A stretch of 64,000 nucleotides of DNA from Nocardia sp. CNY236 (GTDB lineage Bacteria > Actinomycetota > Actinomycetes > Mycobacteriales > Mycobacteriaceae), in assembly GCF_000482385.1 (NCBI RefSeq), contig NZ_AXVD01000020.1, forward strand, positions 62,001 through 126,000, read 5' to 3'. Positions 20,214 to 25,872 of this stretch are shown one piece after another; the stretch's first letter is position 1, and each line of letters opens with the position of its first letter. The translations under genes and the position numbers were made by a program. A model generated the notes under the pieces. The model made no database searches, was not told the origin of the DNA, and worked only from the letters and a program-made list of their open reading frames with translations.

Positions 20214-20546
20214 CTAACCCCTCTGTGCTGCTGCATGTTTGCGACGTGCGCGAGTTTCGGCGTGATGCTCGCGGTCGTAATGCAGGTGGCAGCCCTGACA
20301 CATCGCACGCAGATTCGCCGGGTCGCAGTTCTCGGGCACGTGGTCAAGGTGAGCGGTTGTCAGGATCACCCGTGAACCGGTGCCATAGGCCCAGCCGCCG
20401 TGCACGTTCGGGCATCTGCCTTCATGTGTGCCTCGGCCGCATTCGCCGCTGCACTCGCACCGCCACCCGGCGCGGTCCTTGATGCCTGTCGAGATCGCTA
20501 TCCAGTTCACGGGGTAGCGGCGGCGGTTCTCGGGTCGGATCGGCAT
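20214..20546 (-). CDS. HNH endonuclease
   Basis: 110 aa from ATG 20546, which overlaps the RusA stop by one base (TGATG). Zinc pairs CECSGECGRG and CQGCH frame the core TTAHLDHVPENCDPANLRAMC, the HNH motif with N-to-D style variation typical of phage HNH proteins. The closing helix LHYDREHHAETRARRKHAA is characteristic. Separate from the packaging HNH at 17.4 kb; may be a homing or replication-linked nuclease. Confidence 0.85.
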   Translation of the reverse strand: MPIRPENRRRYPVNWIAISTGIKDRAGWRCECSGECGRGTHEGRCPNVHGGWAYGTGSRVILTTAHLDHVPENCDPANLRAMCQGCHLHYDREHHAETRARRKHAAAQRG

Positions 20547-20980
20547 CAGACCTCCATCGGTGTCACGGTGATCCACACGCCCGGCGTCTCGCCGATGGCG
20601 GCGAGCCTTTTGGAGGCGTGCAGGTCGGTCACCTGCGAGTCATCGGCGAACGCGATCCCGGTCAGCGCGTCCAGGATGGCGCGCGAGAGTTTGTCGACGT
20701 CCGGTTTCTTGACCGCGGGCGGGGTACGCGATTTCGGGGTGCTGAGCGGGCGGGGACGGACGAATGCGAGCTGCACTGCGACCGCACCGGTTCCGGGTGT
20801 CCATCCGTGCTCATGAGCAGCCAGGGCGACACGTTCACGCCATAGGCCGACCGATTTCGAGGACTCGACCATGCGGCCACCGCCGACGTGCTTCTTGCTG
20901 CCCTGTGAGGCGGCGTCGCCGGGCACGAATAACGGTGCGCGTGCTGCCTCGATCGGTTCTCCCGTGCGGTCGAGGGTCAT
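20546..20980 (-). CDS. RusA-family Holliday junction resolvase
   Basis: 144 aa. Diagnostic segments: LFVPGDAASQGSKKHVGG, the metal-binding KKPDVDKLSRAILDALTG and AFADDSQVTDLHASK with its paired Asp. RusA cuts four-way junctions produced during phage recombination and replication. Part of the overlapping early operon behind the replication genes. Confidence 0.9.
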   Translation of the reverse strand: MTLDRTGEPIEAARAPLFVPGDAASQGSKKHVGGGRMVESSKSVGLWRERVALAAHEHGWTPGTGAVAVQLAFVRPRPLSTPKSRTPPAVKKPDVDKLSRAILDALTGIAFADDSQVTDLHASKRLAAIGETPGVWITVTPMEV

Positions 20981-21276
20981 GCAGCACCGCCTTCGGTGAC
21001 GAGCATGAAGTCACGGCCGGTGAGCCTGTTCGCGTCCATCATGGTCGGCTTCATGACCTCGGTGCCCGCGTCGGTGGTGCGGGTAACCGAGCATGTGACC
21101 GAGCAGACGGGCGGCTTCTCGATGCCGCCGTACGCGGGCGGCTGGTAGACGCCGAGCACGGTGACGATCAGGTCGCGCACATTGCTGGTGCGGTTGTCGC
21201 GGTAGTGGTCGCCGACACGGACGGTCCGGCCGCGCACGCCGGTGAATTCGGTGACGGGTTCGGGCTCGACGATCAT
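20977..21276 (-). CDS. Early phage protein of unknown function
   Basis: 99 aa from ATG 21276 (ATGA overlap with upstream gene). The middle contains a strand-rich region (VRGRTVRVGDHYRDNRTSNV, LIVTVLGVYQPP) and two Cys in CSVTCSVTR. Located between the origin and rusA. No family recognised. Confidence 0.55.
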   Translation of the reverse strand: MIVEPEPVTEFTGVRGRTVRVGDHYRDNRTSNVRDLIVTVLGVYQPPAYGGIEKPPVCSVTCSVTRTTDAGTEVMKPTMMDANRLTGRDFMLVTEGGAA

Positions 21277-21506
21277 CGGTTGCGCTCCTTGCGGTCTGCT
21301 TCGCGGTATGCCTGCTGTGCGCGCAGGCTCGGGGTGGTCTGGTGGACTTCGGATCGCTCGCCCTGGGTCCAGGGTCGGCATACGGGGCAGGGGATCGGGC
21401 GGTACTCGTCGTCGTAGCCGAGCCAGCCGCTCCGGCATCGGGGGTTGTGCCAGGGGGCTGAATCGTCTTCGGGTTCGAGGGCTTCTCCGGTGCGATCGCG
21501 GGTCAT
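21273..21506 (-). CDS. Small early protein with CxxC pair
   Basis: 77 aa from ATG 21506. Contains HNPRCRSGWLGYDDEYRPIP followed by CPVCRP, a probable single zinc knuckle, and a charged C-terminal helix (LRAQQAYREADRKERNR). Immediately downstream of the iteron region in the direction of transcription. Function unknown. Confidence 0.5.
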   Translation of the reverse strand: MTRDRTGEALEPEDDSAPWHNPRCRSGWLGYDDEYRPIPCPVCRPWTQGERSEVHQTTPSLRAQQAYREADRKERNR

Positions 21507-21598
21507 GAATTCCACACCTCCGCTCGCGCGGTCGTGAGTTGCGTTGTGAAGTCGGCTACGCGGCGGGTTTGAATGGTTGTGGTTGGTATGGGTTGGTG

Positions 21599-21805
21599 GG
21601 GGGACACCCGTGTCCCCCAGACTCGTGTCAGATGTCCCCTAGACATTGCACAGATGTCCCCCAGACTCATTGGTGCTTCAGATATCCGAGGGACGCTCGT
21701 GTCCCTCCGACTCGGGGCCTGTGGATAACTCCGGGGGACACGGGTGTCCCGCGGACTGGACGCGGCGCGGCGCGCTCTGGGTGTCACTGGTGACCCCCAG
21801 ACTCG
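21599..21805. other. Iteron array with DnaA box: candidate phage replication origin
   Basis: Six copies of a TGTCCCCCAGACTCG-like repeat start at 21611, 21633, 21655, 21700, 21745 and 21791, all in the same orientation. Steps are 22, 22, 45, 45 and 46 bp, i.e. whole multiples of about two helical turns. Copies 1, 4 and 5 carry an extra left arm making a palindrome (best: GGGGGACAC-cc-GTGTCCCCC at 21599-21618). A perfect consensus DnaA box (TTATCCACA, minus strand) lies at 21720-21728 between copies 4 and 5. The last copy overlaps the end of the adjacent winged-helix gene. Confidence 0.75.
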
Positions 21806-22359
21806 TCGGTCTCCTCGACGCCGAGCATCGGCAAATCGAGCAGATCCGACGGGATCGTCAGCCGGTACGTATCGGCCAGCTTCGCGTGCCGATTCCCCTG
21901 CCGGGTGCGCTCGATCAAACCGAGATCCCGCAGCGACGACAGCGACCTCTTGACCGTCCGGTCCGTCACGCACATCACCAGCGCCAGACGCTCGACACCC
22001 GGCCGGATACGAGTCCCGTCCGGGTCGGCGTAGGTCGCCATCGTCAGCGCGAGGTGCTTTGTGCTCGAAGGAATTTGGACACGCCGAATGATGCGTTCCC
22101 ACTCGAACCGATCGACCGGAACTAGCTCGCGCGTCGCGCCCGAAATTGCCTCCACTACGCGCCTCCACACGGTCGAAAGGGTGGACGCCCACCAGCCCCG
22201 GACATCCGTGTCGAATACGCCCCCCGGAGCCATCACGGCGCACACCGAACAAGCTGGCATGCTGTAATCTGCTGCGCTCGTGCATAATTCGCGTGCTACG
22301 GCCAGGGAGTCACCCTGGTACGGGGTGACTCCCTGGCCGAGGTAGTAGGGCGTGATCAC
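21784..22359 (-). CDS. Winged-helix protein, candidate replication initiator
   Basis: 191 aa from GTG 22359, coupled to the clamp gene by GTGA. The N-terminus has CSVC; the core shows a helix-turn-helix typical of phage initiators and plasmid Rep-like proteins: TKHLALTMATYADPDGTRIR, GVERLALVMCVTDRTVKRSL, then SLRDLGLIERTRQGNRH as wing. Its 3' end overlaps the outermost iteron and five more repeats follow directly, which supports self-recognition of the origin. Alternatively a plain transcription regulator. Confidence 0.7.
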   Translation of the reverse strand: MITPYYLGQGVTPYQGDSLAVARELCTSAADYSMPACSVCAVMAPGGVFDTDVRGWWASTLSTVWRRVVEAISGATRELVPVDRFEWERIIRRVQIPSSTKHLALTMATYADPDGTRIRPGVERLALVMCVTDRTVKRSLSSLRDLGLIERTRQGNRHAKLADTYRLTIPSDLLDLPMLGVEETDESGGHQ

Positions 22360-23108
22360 GGCTCGCCGCTCACGGTGAACACGTTGTTCTCGATCTGGTT
22401 TGCCTCGTCGAGCAGGCCGGGCAGCCGGTACGACCAATCGCGCGAATACTCGCTGGCACGGGCGGCGCGGTGCCGGTCGAGCTCACGCGCCGTGCAGTAG
22501 CCGAGGAAGCTCTCACCGCAGCGAGCGAATAGCGCACCCGTGCCGTGGCCCTCGAATTTCAGTGCGGCACCGTAGGTCTTGGCCGCCTCACGGAACCGTC
22601 CGATGAACTCGCCGGTGACGGTGATTTCGTCGAGGTTGGTCGCCTGCGAGCGCTGCATCTGCTCGATCAGCTTGACCACGGCGAAAGACGCCGACTGCTC
22701 GGCCGACAGCCGCGGGAGTTGCAGGGCGCGGCCGTCGATCATGCCCGAACAGTCGGTGATGCGCAGCCGGTCGGGCAGCACCTCGAGCCGTAGCAGCTGC
22801 TCGGGTGTGATGCCGTCGCCCTGTGTGCCCTTGCCGCCTTTGAAGATCGCGAGCAGCTTGCCCACGTCGTCGGGCAGCAGCTCGACCGCGGCCAGGCCGT
22901 GGCCGCCGGGTGGCGGATCGCCCCACAGGGACACGATCGCAAGCGCGCCGGTGTATCGGTCGGTGGCGCTGACGGTGAGGTGCTGGCGTCCGAATTGCAG
23001 CCGTATCCGGTGGTGCGTCGGGTCCTCTTTGTCGGTGCTGGCGTGTACCCGGACCGAGCCGAGTGCCTGCCGGAAATCGCCGGTACCGACGATGACCGTC
23101 TCTCTCAC
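22356..23108 (-). CDS. DNA polymerase III beta-clamp-like protein
   Basis: 250 aa, GTG start. Clamp-type segments are visible: FGRQHLTVSATDRYTGALAI near the centre of the first domain resembles the conserved ATDRYRLA of DnaN, and the chain alternates strands and short helices as expected for two clamp domains. It is shorter than host DnaN (about 380 aa), as phage versions are. Would recruit host polymerase to phage DNA; adjacent to the initiator and origin. Confidence 0.7.
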   Translation of the reverse strand: MRETVIVGTGDFRQALGSVRVHASTDKEDPTHHRIRLQFGRQHLTVSATDRYTGALAIVSLWGDPPPGGHGLAAVELLPDDVGKLLAIFKGGKGTQGDGITPEQLLRLEVLPDRLRITDCSGMIDGRALQLPRLSAEQSASFAVVKLIEQMQRSQATNLDEITVTGEFIGRFREAAKTYGAALKFEGHGTGALFARCGESFLGYCTARELDRHRAARASEYSRDWSYRLPGLLDEANQIENNVFTVSGEP

Positions 23109-24512: not shown

Positions 24513-25336
24513 ACGAGCAGCTCCTCAGCTCGGTAGCGAGTCCATGCAGAGATAGAGACGGTGGGGATTTCGTGGCTGTCGTCCGGCCACTCGTCGGCGG
24601 CCATGCAGTCGGCGAATATCTCGATGGCGCGGCGGTTGCACCGGCGACCGAGCGCCACGTCGGCGGCGTCGACGCGGGCGATGGTGATCCGGTAGGGCGG
24701 TGTCTTGCGTTGCGTGATGAATACGAAGTCGGCGACCTCGATGCCGAGTGCGAGCAGCCCGTCGACGTAGAACGGCTGTTGCATGAAGTAGCCGTACTCA
24801 CCAGCGGCTTTGGCGAACGCTCGATGGCCGGACGATTTCGATGTCTTGTAGTCGACGACGATCCACCGGCCATCGGGCAACCGGGTGAGCCAGTCGAGAC
24901 GCAGCCGTAAACGCGCTCCGGTCTGCTCATCGATCCACCACCCCGAGAGTTCGGGATCGCCCTCGGCGAGGTAGGCGCCCGCGAGGTCGTGCTCGAGCGC
25001 GACGCGCGCCATCTCGCGCGCCTGCTCGTCCTCGGCCTTGAGGATCGGCACCCGCCCGGCCGCGCGAATCTCCTCGCGGGCCTGCCGGGCGTCTTTCGAT
25101 CGCCAGTCGGGCGCGTCGATGACGATAAGTTCGGCGCCCTTGCCGAGCACGTATAGGTGTGCTGCGTGTCCGAAATCAAAGTCGCTCTTTTGGATTCGCG
25201 GTTGCTTGCGGAATTCCGACGGTGAATCGAACAGGATCGTGCGCGCACCCGACGACGACAGGCTGTTACGGTCGGCGTGGTATTCCTCGTCAGGCACGTC
25301 CGGGTACAGACCCGGCTCGATGAGCGCCAGCGTCAC
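24509..25336 (-). CDS. RecE-like / PD-(D/E)XK exonuclease
   Basis: 275 aa, GTG start. Begins PGLYPDVPDEEYHADRNSLS and SSGARTILFDSPSEFR, the typical opening of RecE/YqaJ-like phage exonucleases; FGHAAH supplies the first catalytic His, RLRLDWL the metal Asp and WIVVDYKTSKSS the D-x-K pair. Resects double-strand ends 5' to 3' to feed an annealing protein, producing recombination-dependent concatemers. Confidence 0.82.
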   Translation of the reverse strand: MTLALIEPGLYPDVPDEEYHADRNSLSSSGARTILFDSPSEFRKQPRIQKSDFDFGHAAHLYVLGKGAELIVIDAPDWRSKDARQAREEIRAAGRVPILKAEDEQAREMARVALEHDLAGAYLAEGDPELSGWWIDEQTGARLRLRLDWLTRLPDGRWIVVDYKTSKSSGHRAFAKAAGEYGYFMQQPFYVDGLLALGIEVADFVFITQRKTPPYRITIARVDAADVALGRRCNRRAIEIFADCMAADEWPDDSHEIPTVSISAWTRYRAEELLV

Positions 25337-25872
25337 GCCCTCACCCCCACCGGCTCGACGCTGAGGATGCGCGATGCGGTGTCGGCCGTGATCGCGGTCC
25401 GGACCCCGGTGCCGATGTCGCGGACGGTCGCCCGCGCGACGCCCGCACCGTTGGCAATGTCGAGGATCGTCATTCCGGCGACCTCGCGCAGGAACACGAT
25501 GTGTTTGCGGACGGCCTCATGGTCGCCGGCGTCGCCGCGAGCGATGCGGCGGCACCCGGCACACGTGCGGAGATTGATCTTGACATGCATCTCTCGCCCG
25601 CACGTATCACACAGGCCGCTGGTGACATCGAGGAAGGCGCGCAACGCGGCCCGCTCGTCGTCCATCGAGAATCCTGCGCGGATGCCATACTCCTCGCCGG
25701 TGCTCAGGGCCTCGGCACCACAGGCGCGGCGCACCGGGCAGTCGACACAGACCGCCCGGACCACCGCGGAGCTCTGCGACGGGAACGGGAACCACAACTC
25801 GGGGTCGTGATCGCGGCAAGCCGCGCGGTCGCGCCAGGTGGGGATCGCGGTATCAACTGGCCTGGTCTTCAC
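25333..25872 (-). CDS. WhiB-like protein fused to zinc ribbon and HTH
   Basis: 179 aa, GTG start. Residues 13-70 are a WhiB domain with all four iron-sulfur Cys (C19, C42, C45, C51; CVDCPVRRAC) but YGIRAGF in place of the usual G-V-W-G-G turn. A second pair CDTC (88-91) and CAGC (104-107) makes a zinc ribbon, and the C-terminus (MTILDIANGAGVARATVRDI) is a helix-turn-helix. WhiB proteins act with the primary sigma factor; phage forms can block host WhiB2 and cell division. The added ribbon and HTH could give it its own DNA target. Confidence 0.8.
   Translation of the reverse strand: MKTRPVDTAIPTWRDRAACRDHDPELWFPFPSQSSAVVRAVCVDCPVRRACGAEALSTGEEYGIRAGFSMDDERAALRAFLDVTSGLCDTCGREMHVKINLRTCAGCRRIARGDAGDHEAVRKHIVFLREVAGMTILDIANGAGVARATVRDIGTGVRTAITADTASRILSVEPVGVRA

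Follow-up and report, generated by a model that had tools for sequence, protein, structure and literature searches.

In RepA_N plasmids the origin lies inside the initiator gene. The origin of phage lambda sits in the middle of the O gene, with iterons that are each an inverted repeat and an AT-rich flank (as part of PMC7466680 describes it), and iteron plasmids such as RK2 and P1 have winged-helix initiators, repeated sites, DnaA boxes and DNA opening beside the repeats (from part of PMC4980987). The RepA-like proteins of extrachromosomal mycobacterial prophages, according to part of PMC7157519, are 320-350 aa long, carry a helix-turn-helix (HTH) domain and are tied to parABS, and the same part of that study reports finding no repeated motifs in the regions it examined. 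The main text of the paper on Arthrobacter phage BlueFeather is free of the words replication, repeat, iteron and helix-turn-helix (PMC7954295). Few defined origins of actinobacterial temperate phages were found in the open-access literature, and no description of the phage origins reported below was found in open-access PMC literature.

The locus we describe here, an array of repeats at the end of a small gene, is very probably a phage replication origin, which a winged-helix protein would read with the host DnaA as its partner. It lies in a 64 kb window (the whole stretch of Nocardia DNA that was analysed), in a region that belongs to a temperate Nocardia phage: 4.5-17.3 kb holds the genes for terminase, portal, capsid and tape measure, and 27.9-29.9 kb holds genes that resemble repressors or regulators. 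Scans of 10 proteins with Pfam and of 30 with PHROGs recognised no phage helicase, primase or loader and no partition ATPase. In the phage early genes, the product of 25333-25872 has an N-terminus like that of WhiB (E 4e-17) and, after it, a weak match to HTH_3 that falls short of the cut-off (E 0.0085).

The putative initiator gene lies at 21784-22359 on the minus strand and as listed encodes 191 aa, with a conserved core at residues 80-191 and Arg134 in the recognition helix; an IMG/VR contig of 38,216 bases carries the gene at 99-100% identity. The product had been called a winged-helix protein from the sequence, and Pfam (HTH_36, E 4e-6), matches to PHROG 'replication initiation protein' families and an AlphaFold2 model of the 112-residue core, which forms one winged helix at a mean pLDDT of 87.9, all agree with this. 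At E up to 0.1 its Pfam matches were HTH_36, HTH_Crp_2 and one weak third family, and its closest PDB sequence matches were regulators. The gene and its stop codon stand as predicted, but the length of 191 aa is doubtful at its start, as similarity to the relatives from the genus-genome search begins at residue 38 at the earliest, and the true start is probably further in. A perfect 17-bp inverted repeat (22299-22339; DNA hairpin of -23.7 kcal/mol, z -8.5) sits in this doubtful 5' part of the open-reading frame, just past the adjoining gene; as a candidate part of the replicator it was rejected, being not conserved (17 bp here vs. 11 at most in the other 24 closest loci).

That adjoining gene (22356-23108, minus strand) is where the original prediction placed a sliding clamp beside the initiator. 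The gene does adjoin, and its product is possibly beta-clamp-like; its identity as a clamp is weak, with a PHROG clamp family matched at E 0.001 over 51 residues, a PDB beta clamp at E 0.46 and a poor structure model (pLDDT 48). Its best match is PHROG 12598 (E 1.6e-43), labelled RusA-like, a label that may be wrong because the Pfam RusA match belongs to another gene, at 20546-20980.

The array itself (21599-21806) consists of four palindromes and two lone half-sites of the form (G/A)TGTCCCCCAGAC. A mismatch scan with the 15-mer TGTCCCCCAGACTCG recovered the six same-direction repeats that had been predicted, all on the plus strand, at 21611, 21633, 21655, 21700, 21745 and 21791 (span 21611-21791), with 0, 4, 1, 2, 3 and 1 mismatches, respectively, and start steps of 22, 22, 45, 45 and 46 bp. 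Four of the six copies each form the right-hand arm of a palindrome (starts 21599, 21688, 21733 and 21779; GGGGGACACCCGTGTCCCCC is an example), and the palindromes, like the array as a whole, are strandless: one adjoins a G-poor tract (21599-21622), two follow at 21688-21711 and 21733-21756, and a degenerate fourth (21779-21802) lies over the stop codon of the winged-helix gene and codes its last residues, the gene ending within the last repeat as predicted. The lone half-sites are at 21632-21644 and 21654-21666, both on the plus strand, and on the gene strand the order reads palindrome, 46, palindrome, 45, palindrome, 45, half, 22, half, 22, palindrome. The further proposal that all copies face one side of the helix holds for the 22 bp steps (2.1 turns) but not for the array as a whole, because 45 and 46 bp correspond to 4.29 and 4.38 turns at 10.5 bp per turn and are 103-137 degrees off, which rules out phasing throughout. 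With up to four mismatches the 15-mer occurs at 26 places in the 64 kb window (a raw count, without a shuffled control), 7 in the array (one inverted) and 19 scattered with 3-4 mismatches, whilst the tighter core TGTCCCCNAGACT has just two exact copies in the entire 5.3 Mb genome, both of them in the array. No second cluster of sites was found in the 64 kb window.

Relatives were sought using the protein itself and an 18-row profile. Within the genus, 18 of 150 genomes had the gene, and among genomes sampled more widely it was present in 20 of 401 from the family and 12 of 397 from the order, with further relatives at 7 and 44 IMG/VR loci, 4 genome_contigs loci and in 34 phage records. The domain was matched at 115 loci, of which the 71 that were distinct, among them the window's own, were kept. 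A repeat search made de novo, blind to the window's repeat and run in 300-base windows from the domain end with a threshold score of 4, detected an array scoring at least 4 at 63 of the 71 distinct loci (window included), vs. 7 of 489 control windows from the same loci; the repeats are therefore not absent from the relatives that bear the gene, a possibility raised with the original prediction. Across loci the array keeps its position and the sequence of the repeat varies. Eight loci fell below the threshold: two have weak arrays (L046 at 3.6, L102 at 3.1), one has its array further off (L095), another has it past its second domain copy (L057), and at L053, L055, L059 and L096 no array was found in the de novo search. 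In L057/L029 (G116:C1:5237759-5238481) two winged-helix domains stand in tandem in one protein, with the array past the second, and Nocardia sp. CY41 has two copies of gene plus array on one contig (L008 and L009), with the same half-sites, ca. 57 kb apart.

Amongst the 25 closest loci, which score at least 150 with the profile, 22 have three half-sites in a run, 21-22 bp apart. Many distant, longer relatives carry the array in-frame within the gene, directly past the winged-helix part (e.g. L015, L076 and L085), with other spacings (57, 57, 47, 32 and 22 in L076). Downstream of the candidate origin, an 80-aa open-reading frame with paired cysteines (21273-21515, minus strand) was seen by eye and is perhaps a split-off zinc-ribbon tail of such longer relatives; it looks like their tails by eye, with a best E of 0.33 (three-row profile), which is not significant.

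A search of phage genomes for the repeat beside this gene family had been proposed with the original prediction. As a DNA sequence the repeat did not turn up, the window's own copy giving only chance-level matches in comparison with the phage records, because the letters of the repeat change from phage to phage; arrays as such do recur beside the family. Clear arrays (scores 5.1-8.7) were found in the corresponding gene of the Mycobacterium phages phiGD34-2, phiGD21-1 and IdentityCrisis, and of prophi62-1, WillG and MT835699. In four Arthrobacter phages the scores were 4.1 (BlueFeather), 3.9 (Leona), 3.6 (Galaxy) and 3.6 (Whytu), with locus medians of 2.1-2.6, and these arrays are weak or uncertain; BlueFeather and Whytu have a higher-scoring window elsewhere (4.9 and 3.7). 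The relative in Galaxy is annotated as a 'replication initiation protein'.

The consensus DnaA box predicted within the array is present as an exact TTATCCACA at 21720-21728 on the minus strand, among the repeats, and is the sole exact copy in the window. Searching the 300 bases past the domain end, or 30 before it, we found an exact box at 23 of the 25 closest loci vs. 0 of 179 control windows (24 of 25 vs. 2 of 179 with one mismatch at most). In the second group of 23 loci the exact box was found at 7 vs. 0 of 151 controls (14 vs. 2 of 151 with at most one mismatch), and in the most distant group of 23 the counts were 2 exact and 4 with at most one mismatch, with controls at 0 of 157. A further DnaA box (one mismatch at most) is present at +269 to +281 in 7 of the 25 closest loci.

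Past the last palindrome lies a tract, CCCCCCACCAACCCATACCAACCACAACCATTC (21571-21603, minus strand), which has hardly any G on the gene strand, is conserved past the array and is a candidate unwinding element; beyond it is a conserved box, ACGCAACTCACGACCGCGCG (21525-21544, minus strand). With one G allowed, 17 of the 25 closest loci have a tract of 38-58 bases and the other 8 one of 12-25, although of these 8 L006 and L074 had been measured at the wrong place and both gave 40 bases on remeasurement; control runs (125 windows, G or C) had a median of 14, a 95th percentile of 19 and a maximum of 25. Exact scans of the 2.9 million viral contigs of IMG/VR found a 20-mer of the tract in 7 contigs and the box in 5, all with the gene family and an array, and one locus found by these scans (L125) had been missed by the protein searches. 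Among the 25 closest loci, 17 have a 24-base form of the box with up to five mismatches, seven have it with 6-9 and one lacks it (counts without a control). Because in the window's group the box is found in each of the three reading frames, counted from the gene, and because L067, L069 and L071 hold an in-frame stop, it is conserved as DNA, and a frameshift that would fuse the gene to a box-encoded peptide is ruled out for this group. On the plus strand, 21571-21603 contains G runs of two or three with short loops and may be able to form a two-layer G-quadruplex. GC skew shows no clear switch across 18-26 kb.

Changes in the repeat letters are tracked by one position of the protein. Outward from the palindrome centre the half-site reads TG-N-N-..., where both N vary between loci. 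The alignment covered 60 of the 71 loci, 11 being dropped for a low score or for having no array near the domain, and core labels were at first given to 50 of them. As these labels had been set by eye with the residue in view, the analysis was repeated with an automatic register, which exposed three misread Ser loci (L081, L086 and L087, relabelled) and a fourth that was readable (L078, added), giving a corrected set of 51, with 9 loci that had no clear anchor left out. With the first labels, the Arg134 column was the best of 102 for both variable bases (z 12.3 against 7.9 for the next column at base 3, and 13.0 against 5.2 at base 4). The same column came first of 96 in the automatic register at 44 loci (base 3 z 5.9, next 3.4; base 4 z 10.1, next 4.8), and first again in the corrected set (base 3 z 13.3, next 8.4; base 4 z 15.6, next 6.0). 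In the corrected set base 4 is C at all 25 loci with Arg or Lys and is not C at 24 of 26 with Pro, Ala or Ser, the two exceptions (L015 and L048) both being Ser; under the uncorrected automatic labels, some of them plainly out of register, it is C at 20 of 21 Arg/Lys loci and not C at 19 of 21 Pro/Ala/Ser loci, with two loci having other residues. An Arg or Lys next to a C:G pair fits the usual contact with guanine. The rule for base 3 is looser, because three Lys loci have A there.

Ten held-out loci were examined, of which eight were readable by eye from their consensus, and all eight agree with the base-4 rule; the two that could not be read are L140 and L141. The eight include L139, whose array is weak (2.9), and L136, whose residue, Asn, is outside the earlier classes. 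The partial Mantel r was 0.445 with the labels before correction, a value reached by 0 of 2000 permutations. On well supported branches there are 2-3 independent pairs, none opposite and a few without difference, a count made with base-3 classes and labels before correction that is too small for significance. Because all columns share one tree, the ranking of this column is hard to explain by descent alone.

The array, its DnaA box, the conserved layout and the covariation of protein and site come directly from computation, and comparison across relatives strongly supports the original prediction of an unrecognised phage origin with a winged-helix initiator. We have good confidence in the fuller proposal that 21525-21806 is the origin of a temperate Nocardia phage, complete with initiator, DnaA, opening and helicase loading, and that it may serve as the origin for lytic growth. 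We infer that the winged-helix protein would bind the four palindromes as dimers, with the lone half-sites bound more weakly, by single subunits or as part of a larger complex, that Arg134 would read the variable base pair at the fourth position, and that host DnaA would bind the box between the palindromes. Protein and DnaA together would open the DNA in the array or next to it, the G-poor tract being one possible place, and loading of the host helicase there would go via DnaA and the host's own loader, a route suggested because the phage-encoded alternatives (helicase, primase or loader) went unrecognised among the proteins scanned. Opening at the tract itself is proposed with caution, since the least stable 40-mer in the ca. 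1.1 kb around the domain end overlaps the tract at just 15 of 48 loci; at the other 33 it starts at +22 to +213 in 26, mostly in the array, and in the window's own locus it lies in the array and not in the tract.

The best rival is that the array is an operator, with the winged-helix protein acting as a transcription regulator (repressor or activator) of downstream genes and of itself. Winged helices are common in regulators, the nearest PDB sequences to this one are of that kind, and an operator array would covary with its regulator just as an origin would with its initiator. We nevertheless regard an operator as improbable: it would not account for exact DnaA boxes within the array at nearly all of the closest loci, for the recurrence of the whole layout with tract and box, for the PHROG matches to initiation proteins or for arrays inside the coding frame of the longer relatives, and the window holds no second cluster of sites. 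Partition centromeres have their repeats, direct or inverted, in arrays next to the gene of a DNA-binding protein, and this array adjoins such a gene, whose product could then be the binding partner; we consider this very unlikely, given that DnaA boxes are not expected in a centromere and that the scanned proteins include no recognised partition ATPase. Least credible of all is that the palindromes are RNA hairpins, terminators or attenuators past the gene, since, although three of them fold as DNA into hairpins of -6.8 to -9.1 kcal/mol (z -2.0 to -2.5), lone half-sites without a second arm change their letters along with the other sites across relatives, a protein residue covaries with those letters, and arrays also occur inside coding frames.

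Read as a phage origin, the locus may exemplify something broader, though we put this forward with a little less than even confidence: a modular and widespread class of replicators in actinobacterial phages, made of palindromes, half-sites, a host DnaA box, tract, conserved box and a short winged-helix initiator, in which the specificity of the origin would be set by one residue of the recognition helix, a basic residue going with C at base 4, and specificities would diversify among otherwise alike prophages, which is to be expected if replicons that share a host must avoid one another, with tract and box forming a new module for opening and helicase loading. For several dozen phage origins the analysis yields a layout by which to recognise them, a family of genes and a specificity rule that turns on one residue and can be tested; small replicons compatible with one another could be drawn from them for use in laboratory actinobacteria. 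A further suggestion is that these phages leave helicase loading to the host DnaA and do not bring a loader.

The original prediction likened the set to an iteron plasmid replicon, a comparison that gives way to lambda O/ori, which is closer in having palindromic sites beside or inside the initiator gene. Like such plasmids, the window has a winged-helix protein, repeats and a DnaA box, but its iterons are palindromic and not purely direct, the Pfam matches at E up to 0.1 include no plasmid Rep family, and where iteron plasmid initiators have two winged helices the modelled 112-residue core (residues 80-191) shows one. The Foldseek list for the winged-helix model includes 5kbj, 4pt7 and 4pql (rows 5, 7 and 9, E about 0.01), which we take to be structures of RepA_N plasmid initiators; the winged-helix DNA-binding domain is shared with these, the likeness of fold is generic, weak and found among other generic winged helices. 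The Pfam matches at E up to 0.1 include HTH_36 but not RepA_N. With the mycobacterial prophage RepA proteins, as the part of that study cited above presents them, the locus shares a phage-coded HTH protein in an actinobacterial temperate phage, and differs in the presence of a repeat array and in a protein of 191 aa as listed. Set beside the part of the lambda account cited above, it has a phage initiator (its binding predicted), several imperfect inverted-repeat iterons and an adjoining candidate opening tract, and in the longer relatives, as in lambda, the initiator gene itself contains the iterons. It departs from lambda in that the window's array is at and past the 3' end of a short gene, overlapping only the last codons, mixes lone half-sites with palindromes and has an exact DnaA box built in, with a flank that is G-poor and not clearly AT-rich, and PHROG scans of 30 proteins recognised no helicase loader like P. 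The window combines lambda-like sites beside the gene with plasmid-like DnaA boxes.
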